Notes under the pieces: model-generated
Database searches by the model: none
The model's input: only the letters and a program-made list of their open reading frames with translations
Told to the model about the DNA's origin: nothing
Part shown: positions 4,797-24,994 of the stretch, piece by piece
Position numbering within the stretch: the first letter of the stretch is position 1
Layout: each line of letters starts with the position of its first letter
Made by a program: the position numbers and the translations under genes
Assembly (NCBI GenBank): GCA_016931115.1
Contig: JAFGFM010000198.1
Coordinates: 1-32,605, forward strand
Length of the DNA: 32,605 bases
Direction of reading: 5' to 3'
From: Deltaproteobacteria bacterium
GTDB taxonomy: Bacteria; Desulfobacterota; DSM-4660; Desulfatiglandales; HGW-15

Positions 4797-4837
4797 TTGA
4801 CAATAAACAAAATTATGATATTAGATATCTCTAATTA
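4797..4837 (+). promoter_or_regulatory. feoAB promoter overlapped by a palindromic operator
   Basis: TTGACA lies at 4797-4802. Eleven bases later comes TATGATATTAGATAT, repeated exactly upstream of the flavodoxin leader (13036-13050). The -10 region must lie inside the dyad ATATTAGATA/TCTCTAATTA (4818-4837), which matches its complement at 7 of 10 positions. A repressor bound here would occlude RNA polymerase. Its identity is unknown; a metal-responsive DtxR, Fur or MarR type is possible. Confidence 0.65.
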
Positions 4838-4853
4838 AAATAGAGATCAAAAA

Positions 4854-4940
4854 TGCCTTACGGCTTTCGACCTGTATTGGTGCGTAATGAAGTGAAGGTG
4901 CATTTCGGTAATTATACCGTTTTGCGCCTTTTTTATTTTT
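4854..4940 (+). ncRNA. Structured leader RNA (copy 1) with intrinsic terminator, before feoAB
   Basis: Conserved blocks are CCTTACGGC at 4856-4864 and GAAGTGAAGG at 4889-4898, with a small variable hairpin between them. The second block runs into a terminator: AAGGTGCA (4895-4902) pairs with TGCGCCTT (4923-4930), with an inner helix CGGTA/TACCG and then T6-A-T5. CCUUAC can instead pair with GUGAAGG with one bulged G, which would disrupt the terminator. This is the layout of a transcription-attenuating riboswitch. Two more copies lie at 8241 and 13084. The ligand is unknown, with iron or an iron-related metabolite most likely from the targets. Confidence 0.75.
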
Positions 4941-4948
4941 AAGGAGAT

Positions 4949-5020
4949 ATGGGTTTCGAGATCGCTCTGGACGGGAGCCGTGTTCTTATATGCGGGAGGA
5001 GAGAAGGTAAAATATTATGA
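4949..5020 (+). CDS. Possible 23-codon upstream ORF coupled to feoA
   Basis: A frame of 23 residues starts at ATG 4949 just after AAGGAG. Its TGA overlaps the feoA ATG as ATGA. This arrangement would allow translational coupling, and the peptide contains one Cys. The ribosome site is only 2 bases from the ATG, closer than normal, so this may be chance. No similarity is recognised. Confidence 0.25.
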   Translation: MGFEIALDGSRVLICGRREGKIL

Positions 5021-5241
5021 CTCTTGATAAACTAAAACCCGGAAGCGAATGCCTTGTAAAAAGGCTCTACGCAGAAGACCGGTTGGGCCAAAGACTTATG
5101 GATATGGGGGTGTATCCGGGAATACTGATAAAGGTTATACGCAATGCTCCATTAAAAGATCCTGTGGAGATCGAACTCGAAGGTTTTTATGTGAGTCTGC
5201 GACGTGCGGAGGCATGTTACATTGAGGTTGAAATTCAATGA
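5017..5241 (+). CDS. feoA: Ferrous iron transport accessory protein FeoA
   Basis: FeoA is a small cytoplasmic SH3-like protein that assists the FeoB Fe2+ channel. This one has 74 residues, the usual size. It shows the family pattern of an early LKPG turn, an LGQRLMDMGVYPG segment in the middle and a closing strand with LRRAEA. Its start has a strong GGAGGAGAGAAGG site 9 bases upstream. Its stop overlaps the feoB start (ATGA), so the two are translationally coupled. Expression should depend on the palindromic promoter at 4797 and the leader terminator at 4895-4934. The gene itself looks complete and ordinary. Confidence 0.95.
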   Translation: MTLDKLKPGSECLVKRLYAEDRLGQRLMDMGVYPGILIKVIRNAPLKDPVEIELEGFYVSLRRAEACYIEVEIQ

Positions 5242-7706
5242 TCAGTGGAATGGGTCTCATTGCCCTTGCCGGACAGCCTAATTGCGGAAAATCCACTCTC
5301 TTTAATTTATTAACCGGAGCCAGTCAGCATGTGGCTAACTATCCCGGTGTTACTGTAGAGAAGAAGACAGGCTGGTATACGCACAACAGCAAAAGACTGG
5401 AGGTGGTGGATCTTCCCGGAACCTACAGTCTGACCTCCTATTCACCCGAGGAGAAAGTGGCGCGTAATTTTCTTGTCAGTGAAACGCCCACAGCGGTCAT
5501 CAATGTTGCGGATGCATCAAACCTCAAGCGCAACCTGTATCTCACACTTCAACTGCTTGAGATGGAAGCGCCAGTGATCATGATGCTCAACATGATGGAT
5601 GTTGCCGAAAGAAGGGGAATCGGCATCAATATCAAAGAGCTTGAACATCAGCTCGGCATAAAGGTTATTCCCGCGTCCATGAAAACAGGAGAGGGTAAGG
5701 ATAATCTGCGTCAGGTGCTTGATAATCTAAACGGCCATGAGGTCCTGCAAAGCCGAACCAGGATAGATTATGGCAGGCTTGAGCCCTTTCTTCGTGATAT
5801 TGAGAACAGGGTAAAAGATATTAAAGAGATTTCAGGCAGGTATTCTCCAAGGTGGCTTGCGGTTAAACTATTTGAAAATGACATGGAGGTTATTTCCATT
5901 GCGGGTAAATTTATTCATCAACCGGAAGAATTTTTAGGTTACATAAAAGGGCTCAGGGAAAAGGCATCAGTAGAGAGCGGAGGACCTCCTGAGCATATGA
6001 TATCATTTCAGAGATACAGGGCCGCTGACACAATCATAAGACTGGTACAGGGATCGAAGCATGGCGTAAAAAAGACGTTATCAGACAGGATAGACAACAT
6101 TGTTTGCCACCGCTTTCTCGGGCCTGTGATACTCGTAGGGGTAATTTACCTGCTCTATTATCTTTCCATAGTACAGGGTTATAACCTAACCAATTACACC
6201 TGGCCTTTTCTGGCAAAATTCAGGAGCCTTACTGAATCCATATTGCCTTCCTCAGGGTTTATTGAGATTCCTCTCATTACCTCCTTTGTGCTATGGTTTG
6301 TGGACAGCATAAATGCCCTGCTCAACTATATCCCTATATTTTTTATCCTCTTCGGGCTTATCGCAATACTTGAAGACAGCGGTTATATGCCCAGAATGGC
6401 CTTTATTTTTGACAAGCTTTTTCACAGGTACGGGCTGCACGGCCAATCAACGCTGCCAATGGTCTTAGGCGGTATATATGTTGGTGGATGCGCCGTGCCT
6501 GCAATCATGTCATGCAGGGGAATTCCAGATGAAAGATCAAGGCTTGCCACTATCCTCATAATACCCATGCTAAACTGCCTTGCAAAAATTCCTCTTTATA
6601 TCCTTTTGATCAACATCTATTTTGCTGCACACAAGGGGCTGGCAATGTTTTTTATCTCAACCATCAGCCTGCTGATTGTTCTGCCTGTTGCAAGACTGCT
6701 TACAGCAACAGTCTTAAGGAAAAAAGAGACAGCTCCCTTTATTATGGAGATGCCGCCATATCATATGCCTACCATAAGGGGAGTGCTGGGGCTGGCTGTG
6801 GAAAGGGTGTGGCTCTTTATACGCAAGATAATAACCATTGTTGCTGCAGTGGCGGTGGTGCTCTTTGTTCTGCTCCAGTATCCGGGGCTGGATGATGAAA
6901 GAAAAGATGATTATGAAAACCAAAAGAAAGATGCAATCGCCAGGTTTAATAACCAGATAAGCGGAAGCCCTTTTTCTGAAAAACTGGGAGATGAAAATCT
7001 TATGTCGCTTGTTATTTTCAGTGAAAATTATAAAAGCGCAAAGATGATGGCAAAGGGTAAAGATGCAAACAGGAAGGCGAATGAAAAGTTTGAAAAAAGA
7101 AATCCTGAGTTTTTCAAAATTGTAAGCCCGGATAAAGAAAGTGATGGAGAAAAGGTCAATAAGGCGCTGAAAAATCTCATCAAGACCAGAAAAGGAATTT
7201 TAAGAGAGATCAGAAAGGAAAAGATCAATAACAGCTATCTTGGAAGGATCGGAAAGGCAATTGAACCTGTCACATGTTTTGCCGGATTCAACCGGAATGT
7301 AAATATTGCCCTATTAAGCTCCTTTGCTGCAAAGGAAAGCAGTGTTGCTACCCTTGGCGCACTGTATGAACAGGAAGAGGAAGGAGAGTCCCTTGAAGAA
7401 AGAATGGCAAAAGGTGAAGAGGGTTTTACCTCTCTCCATGCCCTGGCTGTCATGCTTTTTATGGTGCTCTATCCTCCATGCATAGCAACGACAATCATGG
7501 TTAAGGTTCAGACAGGTTCAGTCAAGTGGATGCTTTTTTCGCTTGTTTATCCAATGGTGCTTGGTCTGGCCGCTGCAACGCTGGTTTATTCAGGGGGAAG
7601 CGCCCTGGGGTTGAACGGGCTTGAAGCCATGTTTGCATTTTACGGCCTGGCGCTTTGCGTTACAATTGTGCTGGGGTTGGTAAATACTAAATCAAAACAT
7701 ATTTAA
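5238..7706 (+). CDS. feoB: Ferrous iron transporter FeoB
   Basis: FeoB imports Fe2+ across the inner membrane under anoxic conditions. The 822-residue protein starts with a G domain: G1 GQPNCGKST (12-20), G2 Thr39, G3 DLPG (58-61), G4 NMMD (118-121). A helical spacer follows, then the polytopic gate domain with its two related repeats, including the GGIYVGGCAVPA and FAAKESSVATLGALYEQEEE segments. A hydrophilic, strongly charged insertion of about 118 residues (roughly 553-671) separates two membrane segments and makes the protein longer than the E. coli enzyme (773 aa). It is translationally coupled to feoA. Two small genes for an exported protein and a Cys-rich FeoB companion follow. All nucleotide-binding motifs are intact. 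Confidence 0.97.
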   Translation: MISGMGLIALAGQPNCGKSTLFNLLTGASQHVANYPGVTVEKKTGWYTHNSKRLEVVDLPGTYSLTSYSPEEKVARNFLVSETPTAVINVADASNLKRNLYLTLQLLEMEAPVIMMLNMMDVAERRGIGINIKELEHQLGIKVIPASMKTGEGKDNLRQVLDNLNGHEVLQSRTRIDYGRLEPFLRDIENRVKDIKEISGRYSPRWLAVKLFENDMEVISIAGKFIHQPEEFLGYIKGLREKASVESGGPPEHMISFQRYRAADTIIRLVQGSKHGVKKTLSDRIDNIVCHRFLGPVILVGVIYLLYYLSIVQGYNLTNYTWPFLAKFRSLTESILPSSGFIEIPLITSFVLWFVDSINALLNYIPIFFILFGLIAILEDSGYMPRMAFIFDKLFHRYGLHGQSTLPMVLGGIYVGGCAVPAIMSCRGIPDERSRLATILIIPMLNCLAKIPLYILLINIYFAAHKGLAMFFISTISLLIVLPVARLLTATVLRKKETAPFIMEMPPYHMPTIRGVLGLAVERVWLFIRKIITIVAAVAVVLFVLLQYPGLDDERKDDYENQKKDAIARFNNQISGSPFSEKLGDENLMSLVIFSENYKSAKMMAKGKDANRKANEKFEKRNPEFFKIVSPDKESDGEKVNKALKNLIKTRKGILREIRKEKINNSYLGRIGKAIEPVTCFAGFNRNVNIALLSSFAAKESSVATLGALYEQEEEGESLEERMAKGEEGFTSLHALAVMLFMVLYPPCIATTIMVKVQTGSVKWMLFSLVYPMVLGLAAATLVYSGGSALGLNGLEAMFAFYGLALCVTIVLGLVNTKSKHI

Positions 7707-8055: not shown

Positions 8056-8214
8056 ATGGATAATATTTTAGTTGGCGCCATAGTTTTTCTTGCTGTTCTG
8101 TATCTTTGCAGGCGTATTGCAGGCAGCGCCAAAGGTAAAGGCAGCGGTTGCTGTTGCGGATGTGATGCCTGCGGTAAGAAACCGCCTAATAGCGTATACA
8201 GCAAAGAGCTGTAG
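8056..8214 (+). CDS. FeoB-associated Cys-rich membrane protein
   Basis: This 52-residue frame encodes one membrane helix near the N-terminus (about 4-18), a basic stretch, and a Cys-rich tail GCCCGCDACG with Cys32, 33, 34, 36 and 39. Size, order and composition match the FeoB-associated Cys-rich membrane proteins commonly found next to feoB. Their role is unproven; they may bind Fe2+ at the cytoplasmic mouth or aid assembly. It starts 9 bp after the preceding stop, with a weak GAATAGGTAA ribosome site. Leader RNA copy 2 begins less than 30 bp after its stop, so this is the last gene before the attenuator. Confidence 0.85.
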   Translation: MDNILVGAIVFLAVLYLCRRIAGSAKGKGSGCCCGCDACGKKPPNSVYSKEL

Positions 8215-8240: not shown

Positions 8241-8334
8241 TATCTTACGGCCTCATTAAGTAAATAATAGGATTGAGGAAGTGAAGGTGTAACTCTATGC
8301 ATAGTAATGATGCAATGGGTTACACCTTTTTTTT
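8241..8334 (+). ncRNA. Structured leader RNA (copy 2) with intrinsic terminator, inside the feo operon
   Basis: TCTTACGGC at 8243-8251 and GAAGTGAAGG at 8278-8287 match copies 1 and 3. A CCTCA/TGAGG hairpin lies between them. The terminator stem AAGGTGTAAC (8284-8293) pairs perfectly with GTTACACCTT (8319-8328). Its inner helix is TGCAT/ATGCA, and eight T residues follow (8327-8334). No promoter is evident in the short gap upstream, so this copy probably controls read-through from feoAB into the receptor gene. Confidence 0.75.
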
Positions 8335-8379: not shown

Positions 8380-10287
8380 GTGAAAAAATGTATTGTAATG
8401 CCAGGGATCATATTCCTGGTAATGCTGCACGCAATGGCGTTTGCAGGTGAAAAAGAAGAGGCAGGGGAATTATCAGAGATTGAAAAAATGGTAGTTACCA
8501 CCACCATGACCGAGAAGATCATGAAGGACACCCCGGGTTCTATAGAGGTGATAACCGAAGAGGATATTATTAGTATGAACGCATTGACAGTTGCTGAGGT
8601 GCTTGAGGAAGCTGCCGGGTTGTTTCTTACAAATGAAGCTGGGAGACAGGAAAGGCCCAGTATCAGGGGTACTGGAAACAAGCATACTCTTGTCCTCATA
8701 GATGGTCGCAGGATTGCATCAGGTTTTAAGGATCTCACAGGTTTGGAACAGATCCCTGTTGATATGGTAAGAAGGATCGAGGTAGTACGCGGGCCTGGTG
8801 CCGCCATATACGGAAGCGATGCCATTGGCGGTGTTGTAAATATCATAACTAAAAAGCCTTCTGAAAAGTTGAACATGGGTCTTACCGGACAATACGGTCA
8901 AAGCACCTATGCCGGGGCTGAAGAAAAGTCAGGAAGCGCCTATATAGCAAGTTCCGCAGGGCCTCTTGGTTTTCTCCTTGCCGGCAGCTACAGGGATAAA
9001 AACGGCTATGACAGGGATGGTGTTACTCCTGATGATGGTGATTCCATAGAACAAAAATCCATTGGTGGACGAATTTCATATAAAATAAAGGATAATCAGG
9101 AGATATTGACTGGCCTTGAGATTGTAGAACTAAACACAGTGGGTCTGAGACCGCTCGAAGGACTTGACAGGATAAGGGAGGCTGATAACAGGAGAATTAA
9201 TTATTTTTTGGAATACAATGTAAAAATGCCGAATATGTCTATGCTTATGCTAAGGGCAAACCGCTCTGAACATAAAACCGAAAATGATTTCACACCTGAG
9301 ACAGCAATGATTCCCGGCGCAATAGGGGATGAGAACAATTCAGAACGGTTTCTTAATCAGTTTGAAGGCCGGTATACAGCCGCCTTATTAGACAGGCATC
9401 TTTTAACCCTTGGTGCGGAATACAGAGAGGAGGTAAGAGAAGACGCATCCGGCATGGACAATGATATCCATAACCTGAGTGTTTATCTTCAGGATGAGTA
9501 TCAGCTTATGGATAGTCTTTACCTGCTTCTGAGCGCCCGTTGGGATGATCATTCCACCTTCGGGTCCAAATACACACCAAGGGCATCATTGACATACAAT
9601 ATTATTGAAAATCTCAGGGTAAAAACCTCATGGGCGCAGGGATTCAGGTCTCCGGATATCTCCGAATTATATGTGCCCACCTATATGAGAAGGGGGAAAG
9701 AGGTTTATGAGCCCAACACAGGTCTTGATCCGGAAAAGTCCGACAGCTATGAAGCAGGGCTTGAGGGTGAGATTGGAAGATTTGATGGGCGTATCATGTG
9801 GTTTAAAAACGATATTAAGGACCTTATTGATCCTGTTTTTTACAGGTCAACGGGTTCGGGTAACAGCAGGATCGATTATTACCAGTACCGGAATATCTCA
9901 AAGGCTACCATGACAGGTCTGGAGCTTGAGACAGGCTACAGGTTAAGTAATGGTTTAAGGATATCCGGGAATATTGCCTGGCTGGATACTGAGAACAATC
10001 TCACAGGGCTGGAACTGGAAGGTCGTCCAGACTACAAGGGTATTGTCAGGATAAGCCATGATCGACTGCCATGGGGTCTTTCCGGAAATATCCGCATAAA
10101 TTATATTGGTGAAAGATACTATGCTGCAGGCAACGAAGATGATGAAACACTGGTGCATGCATATCTATACAAAGAACTCTATAAAAATATAAGGATATTT
10201 GCAGGCGCAGACAACGTGTTTAATACCGGGGACGGGAGTGACATTGAACCTGCCTTTTATTACAGCGGTCTGTCTTTCAGATATTAG
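8380..10287 (+). CDS. TonB-dependent outer-membrane receptor 1
   Basis: This is an outer-membrane active transporter of 635 residues, probably for an iron chelate or haem. I set the start at GTG 8380 because AGAAGGAGG lies 6 bases upstream; an in-frame TTG at 8338 would fall in the terminator T-run. The signal peptide ends near FA-G (about residue 23). The TonB box is KMVVTTT, and a plug domain follows with the YGSDAIGGVVNIITKKP block. The remainder is a 22-strand-type beta barrel ending in an aromatic residue (SFRY). It lies in the feo transcription unit behind leader RNA 2 and is followed by a haem-copper-oxidase-like protein and a binding protein. The substrate cannot be read from the sequence. 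Confidence 0.93.
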   Translation: MKKCIVMPGIIFLVMLHAMAFAGEKEEAGELSEIEKMVVTTTMTEKIMKDTPGSIEVITEEDIISMNALTVAEVLEEAAGLFLTNEAGRQERPSIRGTGNKHTLVLIDGRRIASGFKDLTGLEQIPVDMVRRIEVVRGPGAAIYGSDAIGGVVNIITKKPSEKLNMGLTGQYGQSTYAGAEEKSGSAYIASSAGPLGFLLAGSYRDKNGYDRDGVTPDDGDSIEQKSIGGRISYKIKDNQEILTGLEIVELNTVGLRPLEGLDRIREADNRRINYFLEYNVKMPNMSMLMLRANRSEHKTENDFTPETAMIPGAIGDENNSERFLNQFEGRYTAALLDRHLLTLGAEYREEVREDASGMDNDIHNLSVYLQDEYQLMDSLYLLLSARWDDHSTFGSKYTPRASLTYNIIENLRVKTSWAQGFRSPDISELYVPTYMRRGKEVYEPNTGLDPEKSDSYEAGLEGEIGRFDGRIMWFKNDIKDLIDPVFYRSTGSGNSRIDYYQYRNISKATMTGLELETGYRLSNGLRISGNIAWLDTENNLTGLELEGRPDYKGIVRISHDRLPWGLSGNIRINYIGERYYAAGNEDDETLVHAYLYKELYKNIRIFAGADNVFNTGDGSDIEPAFYYSGLSFRY

Positions 10288-13018: not shown

Positions 13019-13059
13019 TTGACAAAGAAAATAGATATGATATTAGATATATCTAATAT
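13019..13059 (+). promoter_or_regulatory. Flavodoxin-operon promoter with a perfect 20-bp palindrome
   Basis: TTGACA at 13019-13024 is followed after 11 bases by TATGATATTAGATAT, exactly as upstream of feoA. ATATTAGATATATCTAATAT at 13040-13059 is a perfect palindrome and overlaps the expected -10. The shared arrangement predicts one repressor for feoAB and the flavodoxin/CobN operon. The divergent marR promoter lies about 30 bp away but carries a different element. Confidence 0.7.
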
Positions 13060-13083: not shown

Positions 13084-13171
13084 TTTACACCTTACGGCAT
13101 ATAGCCTTTTTGAAGGCGTGTAAAGAAGTGAAGGCGCAAATGGTAATCGGCTACCAGTTGCGCCTTTTTTT
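13084..13171 (+). ncRNA. Structured leader RNA (copy 3) with intrinsic terminator, before flavodoxin operon
   Basis: CCTTACGGC (13090-13098) and GAAGTGAAGG (13125-13134) match the other copies. TTTACAC (13084-13090) can pair with GTGTAAA (13118-13124) around a GCCTT/AAGGC hairpin. The terminator is AAGGCGCAA (13131-13139) with TTGCGCCTT (13158-13166), inner helix TGGTA/TACCA, and then seven T residues (13165-13171). The T-run ends where the flavodoxin ribosome site begins. The stem sequence differs from copies 1 and 2 while the pairing is kept. Confidence 0.77.
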
Positions 13172-13183
13172 ATGGAGGTAATT

Positions 13184-13639
13184 ATGAAAAAGGTTTTGAT
13201 AATCTTCGGTTCTACAACAGGCAACACCGAATATATGGCGGGTATCATAGGCAAAGGTTTCATAGAGGCAGGGTTTAAAACCGCTTTGATTAATGCGGCG
13301 GATTTTGATCCTGGGGAACTTCAGGGTGACCTGAGTGCAATCATCCTGGGCTGCCCAGCTTACGGGCATGACACTGTAGAACTTCAGGATGAGTTTGCGG
13401 TGTTTTTTGAAGAGCTGGACAGCATTGACCTGAAAAACAGATCTTTTGCTGTTTTCGCTCCGGGTGACAGCTCATATGAACACTATTGCGGGTCAGTGGA
13501 TTTGATAGAGGAAAAACTTGAAAGTTTAGGGGCGTTGAGATTATGCGATGGGCTCAGGGTGGATGGCGACCCGCAAAACTGTAAAGGGGAAATCTCTGAC
13601 TGGGCTGATTCTGTAATTAATGGGATTAACATAAAATAA
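13184..13639 (+). CDS. Short-chain flavodoxin
   Basis: Flavodoxin is a small FMN electron carrier that commonly replaces ferredoxin under iron limitation. This 151-residue protein has the phosphate-binding loop GSTTGNT (9-15) and the two isoalloxazine-flanking loops GCPAYGHDTVELQ and APGDSSYEHYCG. Its length fits the short-chain class. I start at ATG 13184, because the in-frame ATG at 13172 is part of the TATGGAGG ribosome site. It is the first gene after leader RNA 3 and a palindromic promoter. It heads an operon for a DUF4198 protein, a TBDR and the CobN-like module, so it may also donate electrons to iron or haem reduction there. Confidence 0.92.
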   Translation: MKKVLIIFGSTTGNTEYMAGIIGKGFIEAGFKTALINAADFDPGELQGDLSAIILGCPAYGHDTVELQDEFAVFFEELDSIDLKNRSFAVFAPGDSSYEHYCGSVDLIEEKLESLGALRLCDGLRVDGDPQNCKGEISDWADSVINGINIK

Positions 13640-22978: not shown

Positions 22979-24994
22979 ATGACAAAGGGGAAACTCTTAT
23001 TATTAACTATTTTTATATTTTTTATTTCAGCCATTGTCCTCGCTAATGAAGATACTAATGACGAAGATCTATTTTATCTTGAGGAGATAGTGGTAACTGC
23101 CACTAAAACAGGGGATAAGATAAAAGACATACCTGCAAGCATAAGCGTAATAGAAGGTTCTGATATTATTGATTCGGGTAACCGCGTGATACAGGATGCA
23201 CTGCATCTTGTCCCTGGCATATCGGTTAATGATGTGTCAGGTAACGGCATACAGACAATGATGACAATGCGGGGCATGCCCAACAGTAATTCACAGTATA
23301 TTCTCGTATTGGTTGACGGTGTGCCTCAGAACACCCCCACGGATATAGTCAGATGGGGGAATATACCGATGGATAACGTGGAAAGGGTTGAGGTTATAAA
23401 AGGTCCGGCGGCCGCATTGTATGGAATGAACGCCATTGGAGGGGTTATCAATATCATAACAAAGAAACCGAATGCGTTAGGCGAAGGGAAAATATCCGCA
23501 GGTTTTGGGAGTTACGATGAAAATAAGCAGAAGGTCTCTTTTTCCGGGGTTGCCGCCAAGTTCGGATACTCAATGGGAGGAGCGAGACATCAGTCAGACG
23601 GATGGAGAGACGATAACAACAGTTATGAAAAATATAATCTCTATGGAAAGGTAACAAGGGATATCAATTCAAAACACTCTATTTCCCTGAATCTTGCCTT
23701 TTCAGAATGGGACAATGATTTTCCTGAAAGCATAAGATACAGCGACTATAACGCAGGAAATTTTGATTCAGGAATATACGGCCATGGAAAGGAAAAAAAC
23801 ACCCAGGCTGATAATGCCCTGATTTATGAATACAGGCTGAATGAACAGCAGAAGATAACTAACAGGCTTTACGGCCAGTGGGTAGATACCAAATGGAAAG
23901 ATATTGTTGATGTTGTAGATGAGGATGTGGAATCACTTCGGATCGGTAATGAACTTCAGTATGAGACATTGCATGATTTTATTGGGAGAAAAAACAGGAT
24001 CATAATGGGCTACCAATATGAACATCAGGATGCCGAGGCTGAAAGAAGATTTTCAAGTTATTTTCCTGTTCCTTCAAGGGTGGGGCAAAAATATGTCGCG
24101 AATGATTCTGTTAGAAAGGTTAACGGCCTCTATCTTCATGATATGTTTTATATTAATGACAGCCTTATCCTGTCGGCAGGGGCGCGATACGATTATACTG
24201 ATTTTGAATTTGATAACTACCTTGATCCGGAATTATCAGGCAGCGACAGCATGGATAAAATAAGCCCCAAAATGGGTTTGACCTATAACCTGAATGCGAA
24301 TTTATCATTGTTTACAAATATCGGCACAGGGTTTAAGACCCCCACCGGCGCTCAGGTTGCCAGATACATAGGACTTGAGCCTGAAAAGAATATCAGTTAT
24401 GAGACGGGATTAAAGGGGACCATCTCACAGATCCTATACTTTACTGCCAGCGTCTACCGGAATGACCTTAAAGATCAGATCTCATCTGTTGCAGACCCGA
24501 GAGAACCATCGGGTTACAGCCTTACAAATGCCGGGAAATCAAAGACCGAGGGATTTGAATTTGAGATAAATTTAATTAATCAGGAAAACTTTCAGGCCTT
24601 TGTTTCCTATAATTATAACAGGTCTGAGTTTATAGAGTTTTTCGATCAGGACCTGGAATTGGACTATGCAGGTAATGACTTTGCATGGCAGCCAAGACAC
24701 AAGATCACAGGAGGAATATCCTACAGGCATCCATCAGGGATTATTGCCTCCTTGACAACAAAATGGATTGACGAGCAATACCTGTCAAACGCTAATGAAT
24801 ATACTCAGGATTCCTATTCCATAACTGACCTGTCAATATCCTATACCAGGAATTCATGGGAGGTCTCAATGGATGTAAGGAATCTTTTTGATAAAAAATA
24901 TGCAACATACGGAGAGGACTGGGGCTGGGGTGATGTGTTCCTGACTGAGGGCGATCCTATTACCGTTTTTGGCGAATTGACCTATAATTTTTAA
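22979..24994 (+). CDS. TonB-dependent outer-membrane receptor 3
   Basis: This 671-residue TBDR has a signal peptide (about 1-22, ending VLA-N), TonB box EEIVVTATK, and a plug with YGMNAIGGVINIITKKP. The beta barrel finishes with ELTYNF. CAGGGGGAA precedes the ATG. Together with the DUF4198 gene directly after it, this repeats the DUF4198-receptor pairing seen at 13656-16578, but in the opposite order. The sequence is clearly diverged from receptors 1 and 2, so it probably takes up a different chelate. The 91 bp before it contain no clear promoter, so it may be read from the CobN-HU unit. Confidence 0.93.
   Translation: MTKGKLLLLTIFIFFISAIVLANEDTNDEDLFYLEEIVVTATKTGDKIKDIPASISVIEGSDIIDSGNRVIQDALHLVPGISVNDVSGNGIQTMMTMRGMPNSNSQYILVLVDGVPQNTPTDIVRWGNIPMDNVERVEVIKGPAAALYGMNAIGGVINIITKKPNALGEGKISAGFGSYDENKQKVSFSGVAAKFGYSMGGARHQSDGWRDDNNSYEKYNLYGKVTRDINSKHSISLNLAFSEWDNDFPESIRYSDYNAGNFDSGIYGHGKEKNTQADNALIYEYRLNEQQKITNRLYGQWVDTKWKDIVDVVDEDVESLRIGNELQYETLHDFIGRKNRIIMGYQYEHQDAEAERRFSSYFPVPSRVGQKYVANDSVRKVNGLYLHDMFYINDSLILSAGARYDYTDFEFDNYLDPELSGSDSMDKISPKMGLTYNLNANLSLFTNIGTGFKTPTGAQVARYIGLEPEKNISYETGLKGTISQILYFTASVYRNDLKDQISSVADPREPSGYSLTNAGKSKTEGFEFEINLINQENFQAFVSYNYNRSEFIEFFDQDLELDYAGNDFAWQPRHKITGGISYRHPSGIIASLTTKWIDEQYLSNANEYTQDSYSITDLSISYTRNSWEVSMDVRNLFDKKYATYGEDWGWGDVFLTEGDPITVFGELTYNF

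Follow-up and report, generated by a model that had tools for sequence, protein, structure and literature searches.

Leader RNAs of iron genes in Desulfobacterota with two alternative folds, and a small protein domain predicted to act on them as an antiterminator

The stretch analyzed here, referred to as the window, is the 32,605-nt contig JAFGFM010000198.1 of a deltaproteobacterial genome (assembly GCA_016931115.1, Desulfobacterota). It holds three copies of a leader RNA element, all on the + strand, located upstream of feoA/feoB, a TonB-dependent receptor gene and a flavodoxin gene (Table 1). Comparison of homologues showed that this leader RNA has two predicted, mutually exclusive folds, i.e., a P1-P2 hairpin and an intrinsic terminator sharing the 3′ strand of P1. 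Judging from sequence features, the element is probably a protein-dependent transcription attenuator, with a small helical domain of about 97 amino acids (aa) as the predicted RNA-binding antiterminator.

The overall pattern of the element is CUUACGG, a hairpin and AAGUGAAGG, followed by the intrinsic terminator. CYTTACGGC occurs three times in the window (0.22 expected), its occurrence at 23867 being unrelated to the leader elements; copy 2 has TCTTACGGC, and GAAGTGAAGG is found exactly three times. Hence, the three leaders with a conserved core and a terminator described in the initial annotation were borne out, including the copy 1 terminator stem AAGGTGCA/TGCGCCTT, located at 4895-4902/4923-4930. 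Over the 5.18-Mb genome, the joint pattern returned the three window copies only, all on the + strand, and its reversed control returned none. A fourth, slightly divergent copy, overlooked by the first covariance-model search of the genome, was found on another contig (locus L202, about 1570-1612), 5′ of a DUF3450 gene, giving a genome total of four. With the Rfam 15 covariance models, the element remained unmatched at the gathering threshold in the window and 25 other loci, in line with the initial statement that the motif belongs to no recognized class, NiCo/Sensei included. A C4 antisense match in L263 falls outside the element, and below-threshold matches look like noise.

Scanning of genome contigs with the pattern yielded convincing homologues, each with a terminator, in Desulfobacterota records, including the isolate Desulfosarcina alkanivorans, and in one unclassified bin; most of the 117 exact motif matches were chance matches within coding DNA and were discarded. 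A covariance model of the element (R1) matched 25 of the 85 genomes of the class, one match being judged false (G002, E 0.0076) and excluded from the statistics, and 19 of the 395 genomes of the phylum. The downstream genes in Desulfobacterota were mostly feoA/feoB or genes for TonB-dependent receptors, TonB, DUF3450, porins, DUF2325 and flavodoxin, and the association with iron genes noted in the window was supported. In two loci (L158 of G166 and L159 of G094), elements are arranged in tandem, the second copy lying directly after the first terminator.

The folds were then compared across 72 distinct Desulfobacterota elements. In the P1-P2 fold, CUUAC pairs with GU(G)AAG to form P1, in which one G is bulged, and a GG/AA internal loop leads to P2, which is variable. 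In an alignment anchored on conserved letters alone, and so without a lean towards structure, the first five P2 pairs all lay beyond 2000 shuffles. In the model alignment, which is biased towards the structure, 96.1% of the cells were paired (81.8% when shuffled) with 139 double changes (37.6 when shuffled), and shifting the pairing partner abolished the covariation signal. The pair adjoining the GG/AA loop varies as well, being C-G, U-A or G-C. This strong covariation backs two earlier proposals, namely that selection acts on RNA structure and that CYUUAC pairs with GUGAAGG leaving one G bulged. An alternative P1, in which UUACG pairs with CGUAA of the terminator arm, was rejected because it is broken in copies with CGCAA or UGCAU.

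The key evidence comes from a three-way covariation between P1 position 2 and the terminator, with U-A-U in 56 elements and C-G-C in 9. Indeed, in the nine elements with C-G at this position, which may derive from few events, the terminator 3′ arm likewise changes from U to C. Because of this covariation, P1 and the terminator can be regarded as alternative partners of one strand. Together with folding, it points to a transcription attenuator with exclusive antiterminator and terminator, as the competition suggested in the initial annotation would require. In 58 of the 72 elements, the terminator was predicted to be the more stable of the two folds, which suggests default termination.

The same alignment bears on two other explanations. 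Leader-peptide attenuation, in which AUG UCU UAC GGC ... GAA GUG AAG would code for a regulatory peptide, finds some support in the ATGT that precedes CTTACGG in 29 of the 72 elements, a few of which read MSYGxRP...EVKA*. However, the ATG is missing in 43 elements including every window copy, the core lengths fall into all three classes modulo 3 (33/25/14), similarity between the peptides ends right after MSYG, and it is the pairing that is conserved, not the codons. The reading frame not being conserved, this explanation is largely refuted and retains a very small probability. Just as improbable is a non-regulatory origin, as a conserved terminator or processing signal or an intergenic mobile repeat: several copies per genome and the tandem copies would be compatible with it, but not the specific position 5′ of iron/transport or signaling genes, nor an alternative structure kept by three-way covariation.

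The candidate partner of the RNA was found in the neighboring genes. Among the first-collected elements, 28 of 61 have a gene for a protein of about 97 aa upstream, usually directly. These helical proteins share the motif AFKSKxLExLRKxL, and a CxxxxCP motif is present in many members of the domain, though not universal. The domain had no match in Pfam, NCBIfam or PDB, Foldseek and PDB profile searches returned nothing significant, and no description of the domain/element system was found in open-access papers. Within the class, 22 genomes have both element and protein, 2 the element only, 3 the protein only and 58 neither (Fisher p 5e-15); within the phylum, the corresponding numbers are 18, 1, 7 and 369 (Fisher p 2e-24). 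These p-values serve as guides, and the cross-phylum tests weigh more, because kin genomes are not independent and linkage contributes. Several genomes strictly counted as protein only do carry, on inspection, an element missed by R1 (G014, G241, G309, G254). When genomes were selected by the DNA motif alone, the protein was present in 8 of 8 (in one of them as a fragment where the contig ends) and in 0 of 3 controls. The three window copies sit on a different contig from the protein gene. Besides, a protein of about 420 aa with a C-terminal DUF2325 recurs after the small protein and the element (L061, L086, L129, L138, L218), and in L216 (G440) the partner domain has a Cys-rich C-terminal tail (CSCCGSGDCEKCSC), possibly a metal-binding fusion.

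The domain was also encountered outside Desulfobacterota, where a second model (R2) was used for the element. In Nitrospirota, it is present in 18 of 148 genomes, mostly as the C-terminal output part of REC (PF00072) response regulators, and the element often lies directly downstream of the REC-domain gene. R2 detected the element in 10 genomes, all among these 18 (both/element only/protein only/neither, 10/0/8/130; p 4e-11); with the training genomes removed, 6 of 6 element genomes have the domain (p 2.7e-7). The element of Nitrospirota and of one divergent Desulfobacterota genome has an extra P1 pair and inner pairs AAC/GUU, AGC/GUU or GUC/GAC, while retaining the bulged G and the GG/AA loop. 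Searching with the protein alone gave the domain in 5 of 329 Pseudomonadota and 10 of 327 Acidobacteriota genomes, the REC architecture being found in Acidobacteriota members too. The element lies just 3′ of the protein gene in 10 of the 16 loci chosen in this way, i.e., all five from Pseudomonadota and L268, L273, L274, L277 and L278, with L270 borderline. Nine were matched by R2 (E up to 2e-5) and L268 by R1, whereas unrelated loci, scanned strictly for the structure, gave a background of 1 match per 1.58 Mb. Outside Desulfobacterota, the element precedes genes for sensor kinases, response regulators and PAS-GGDEF proteins; in Pseudomonadota (L263-L267), the element is located 5′ of globin-like/PAS/GGDEF diguanylate cyclase genes. 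As these are signaling genes, the system extends beyond iron.

These results bear on the iron-responsive riboswitch first proposed for the leaders, of which the conserved attenuator near iron genes was retained. A riboswitch for a small molecule or metal (Fe2+, haem, flavin mononucleotide or an iron-starvation metabolite) would have P1/P2 as its aptamer and the small protein as a mere neighbor in the iron regulon. The attenuator layout, the conserved unpaired core (GG/AA, bulged G) and the downstream iron genes would suit it, but only about 16 nucleotides are conserved, and one protein family co-occurs with the element in four phyla despite different targets. Since the presence of the element goes along with that of an undescribed domain across phyla, even where the downstream genes are not iron genes, the riboswitch interpretation is probably wrong. 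Moreover, P1 formation excludes the terminator, so a ligand stabilizing P1 would turn the genes ON, a poor fit for iron at feoAB. The protein gene is often 5′ of the element and hence not itself under its control, which is a further argument against this interpretation. Overall, a riboswitch appears unlikely.

For the attenuator with a protein partner, the following mechanism can be proposed. The small domain would bind the P1/P2 hairpin through recognition of its bulged G and GG/AA loop, and the bound protein would stabilize the hairpin as an antiterminator that blocks the terminator. Polymerase could then read into the feoAB, receptor, flavodoxin and DUF3450 genes, whereas the more stable terminator would form without bound protein. 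In Desulfobacterota, iron would act at least through a DtxR-type repressor on promoters, hence on the amount of small protein; in REC fusions of the domain, control would presumably occur by phosphorylation. The opposite direction, in which the protein binds the RNA yet promotes termination by blocking P1 or stabilizing the terminator, would switch the genes off. PyrR and TRAP, which promote termination on binding RNA, are precedents, and the co-occurrence data are compatible with either direction. Nevertheless, it is in P1 and the internal loop, a fold incompatible with the terminator, that the sequence is conserved, whereas the terminator loop and inner stem are variable, making this option slightly less probable even than the riboswitch. 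Extending the antitermination mechanism beyond the window, we consider it reasonably likely, with somewhat less confidence than for the attenuator itself, that four or more phyla share an undescribed regulator family which binds RNA, occurs alone or as a response-regulator output and acts through one hairpin (bulged G, GG/AA) to bring about antitermination, with a second, RNA-level iron layer under DtxR in Desulfobacterota.

Several observations weigh against protein-dependent antitermination. Much of the co-occurrence of element and protein is due to physical linkage. The element is present without a detectable protein in G045 (95% complete, 4 elements) and G043 (87%); conversely, weak matches to the REC-type domain occur in G007, G028 and G174 with no recognized element, and in five Acidobacteriota loci (L269, L271, L272, L275, L276) no element adjoins the protein gene. 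In the Pseudomonadota element, the simple bulged G is missing and a C.A mismatch is present. Finally, the predicted fold of the small protein is only moderately confident (predicted local distance difference test, pLDDT, 79.6; predicted template modeling score, pTM, 0.40) and gave no structural match.

Regarding iron, the small-protein gene usually follows a gene for a DtxR-type iron-dependent repressor in Desulfobacterota, as seen at about 30 distinct loci. This is illustrated by locus L202 of the genome under study, with the order dtxR, small protein, feoA, feoB and a repressor with Fe_dep_repress/Fe_dep_repr_C domains. The small protein of L202 (488-787) has 99 aa, and an orthologue is present in Desulfosarcina alkanivorans. 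A perfect TTAGR-N4-YCTAA palindrome, which we take to be a DtxR site from its likeness to the DtxR/IdeR consensus, lies 36-48 nt upstream in 11 of the 72 elements, two of them in the window, while 0.09 were expected from mononucleotide shuffles. The repressor genes and the boxes suggest a DtxR-type regulon and support the iron link of the Desulfobacterota elements. The delta-proteobacterial Fur box, WTGAAAATNATTTTCAW (Rodionov 2004; PMC545781), was also considered; the upstream boxes do not resemble it, and the DtxR-like box fits instead.

Table 1. Features of the window related to the three leader elements.
Feature	Position	Strand	Basis or remark
Likely -35 of feoAB promoter (copy 1), TTGACA	4797..4802	+	sequence; similar arrangement at copy 3
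DtxR-like operator of copy 1, TTAGATATCTCTAA	4821..4834	+	perfect-box statistics upstream of elements
RNA element copy 1	4857..4898	+	model search E 9.5e-13, covariation
Copy 1, P1 5′ strand CUUAC	4857-4861		
Copy 1, GG	4862-4863		
Copy 1, P2 hairpin			
Copy 1, AA	4890-4891		
Copy 1, P1 3′ strand GU(G)AAG	4892-4897		
Copy 1 intrinsic terminator	4895..4930	+	5′ arm overlaps P1 3′ strand; z -5.35 for terminator stretch
feoA	5017..5241	+	PF04023
feoB	5238..7706	+	PF02421
RNA element copy 2	8244..8287	+	model search E 2e-9
Copy 2 intrinsic terminator	8286..8326	+	folding
TonB-dependent receptor	8380..10287	+	PF00593, PF07715; likely GTG start 8380 (listed open reading frame from 8338)
Likely -35 for copy 3, TTGACA	13019..13024	+	sequence
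DtxR-like operator of copy 3, TTAGATATATCTAA	13043..13056	+	perfect-box statistics
RNA element copy 3	13091..13134	+	model search E 1.2e-10
Copy 3 intrinsic terminator	13131..13166	+	folding
Flavodoxin	13184..13639	+	PF00258; likely ATG 13184 after GGAGG (listed open reading frame from 13172)

Two other genes of the window flank the feoAB operon. A large haem peroxidase gene (PF00141; 2427-4622) is located immediately upstream of its promoter. After feoB, the stretch 8057-8213 encodes a small Cys-rich single-pass protein (MDNILVGAIVFLAVLYLCRR...CCCGCDACGKK) that resembles FeoB-associated Cys-rich proteins; similar proteins are also encoded 5′ of elements in L144 and L155.

To our knowledge, binding to leader RNA as a means of controlling intrinsic terminators is limited to few protein families. 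If the proposed system is true, feoAB operons would gain a control layer acting after transcription start, and a shared system with targets predictable directly from sequence would serve iron control in sulfate reducers and signaling genes in Nitrospirota, Acidobacteriota and Pseudomonadota. In the literature surveyed, ANTAR was the only output domain of response regulators well described as binding RNA; the present domain would be a second, with its own RNA target.

In ANTAR antiterminators (AmiR, NasR, EutV), a REC response regulator carries a helical output domain that binds RNA, and formation of an intrinsic terminator is precluded once the hairpin is bound (PMC3369931, PMC8934654). The REC proteins described here are similar, with a helical output domain, here predicted to bind RNA, and a hairpin exclusive with the terminator. 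Nevertheless, a Pfam search with their C-terminal domain and the stand-alone protein gave no family, ANTAR included. Besides, ANTAR targets are made of two hairpins with conserved loop residues, whereas the present element is a single hairpin that has a GG/AA loop and a bulged G and whose apical loop varies freely. The LicT/SacY/BglG-RAT systems share a short hairpin with internal loops overlapping the terminator 5′ arm and, as would be the case here, readthrough on binding; their internal loops differ, there is no phosphotransferase system (PTS) link here, and the domain search found no CAT/PRD domains in the partner protein. The gene order recalls HutP and PyrR attenuation, in which the operon starts with the regulator gene and the attenuator separates this gene from the following one; the partner protein showed no sequence relation to them in the searches made. 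The NiCo/czcD ("Sensei") riboswitch is also linked to metal-transport genes and transcription attenuation, but its structure is different and the Rfam match at gathering score is lacking. The one possible precedent met in the literature is the Pseudomon-GGDEF motif, tabulated as a candidate cis-regulator of Pseudomonas that lacks an Rfam entry (Weinberg 2010; PMC2864571). The Pseudomonadota elements also precede GGDEF genes, and identity with that motif, likened by its name and table entry alone, is a guess. From these comparisons, the leaders and their partner domain are best read as a putative new protein/RNA antitermination system, analogous to ANTAR and LicT/RAT but outside both.
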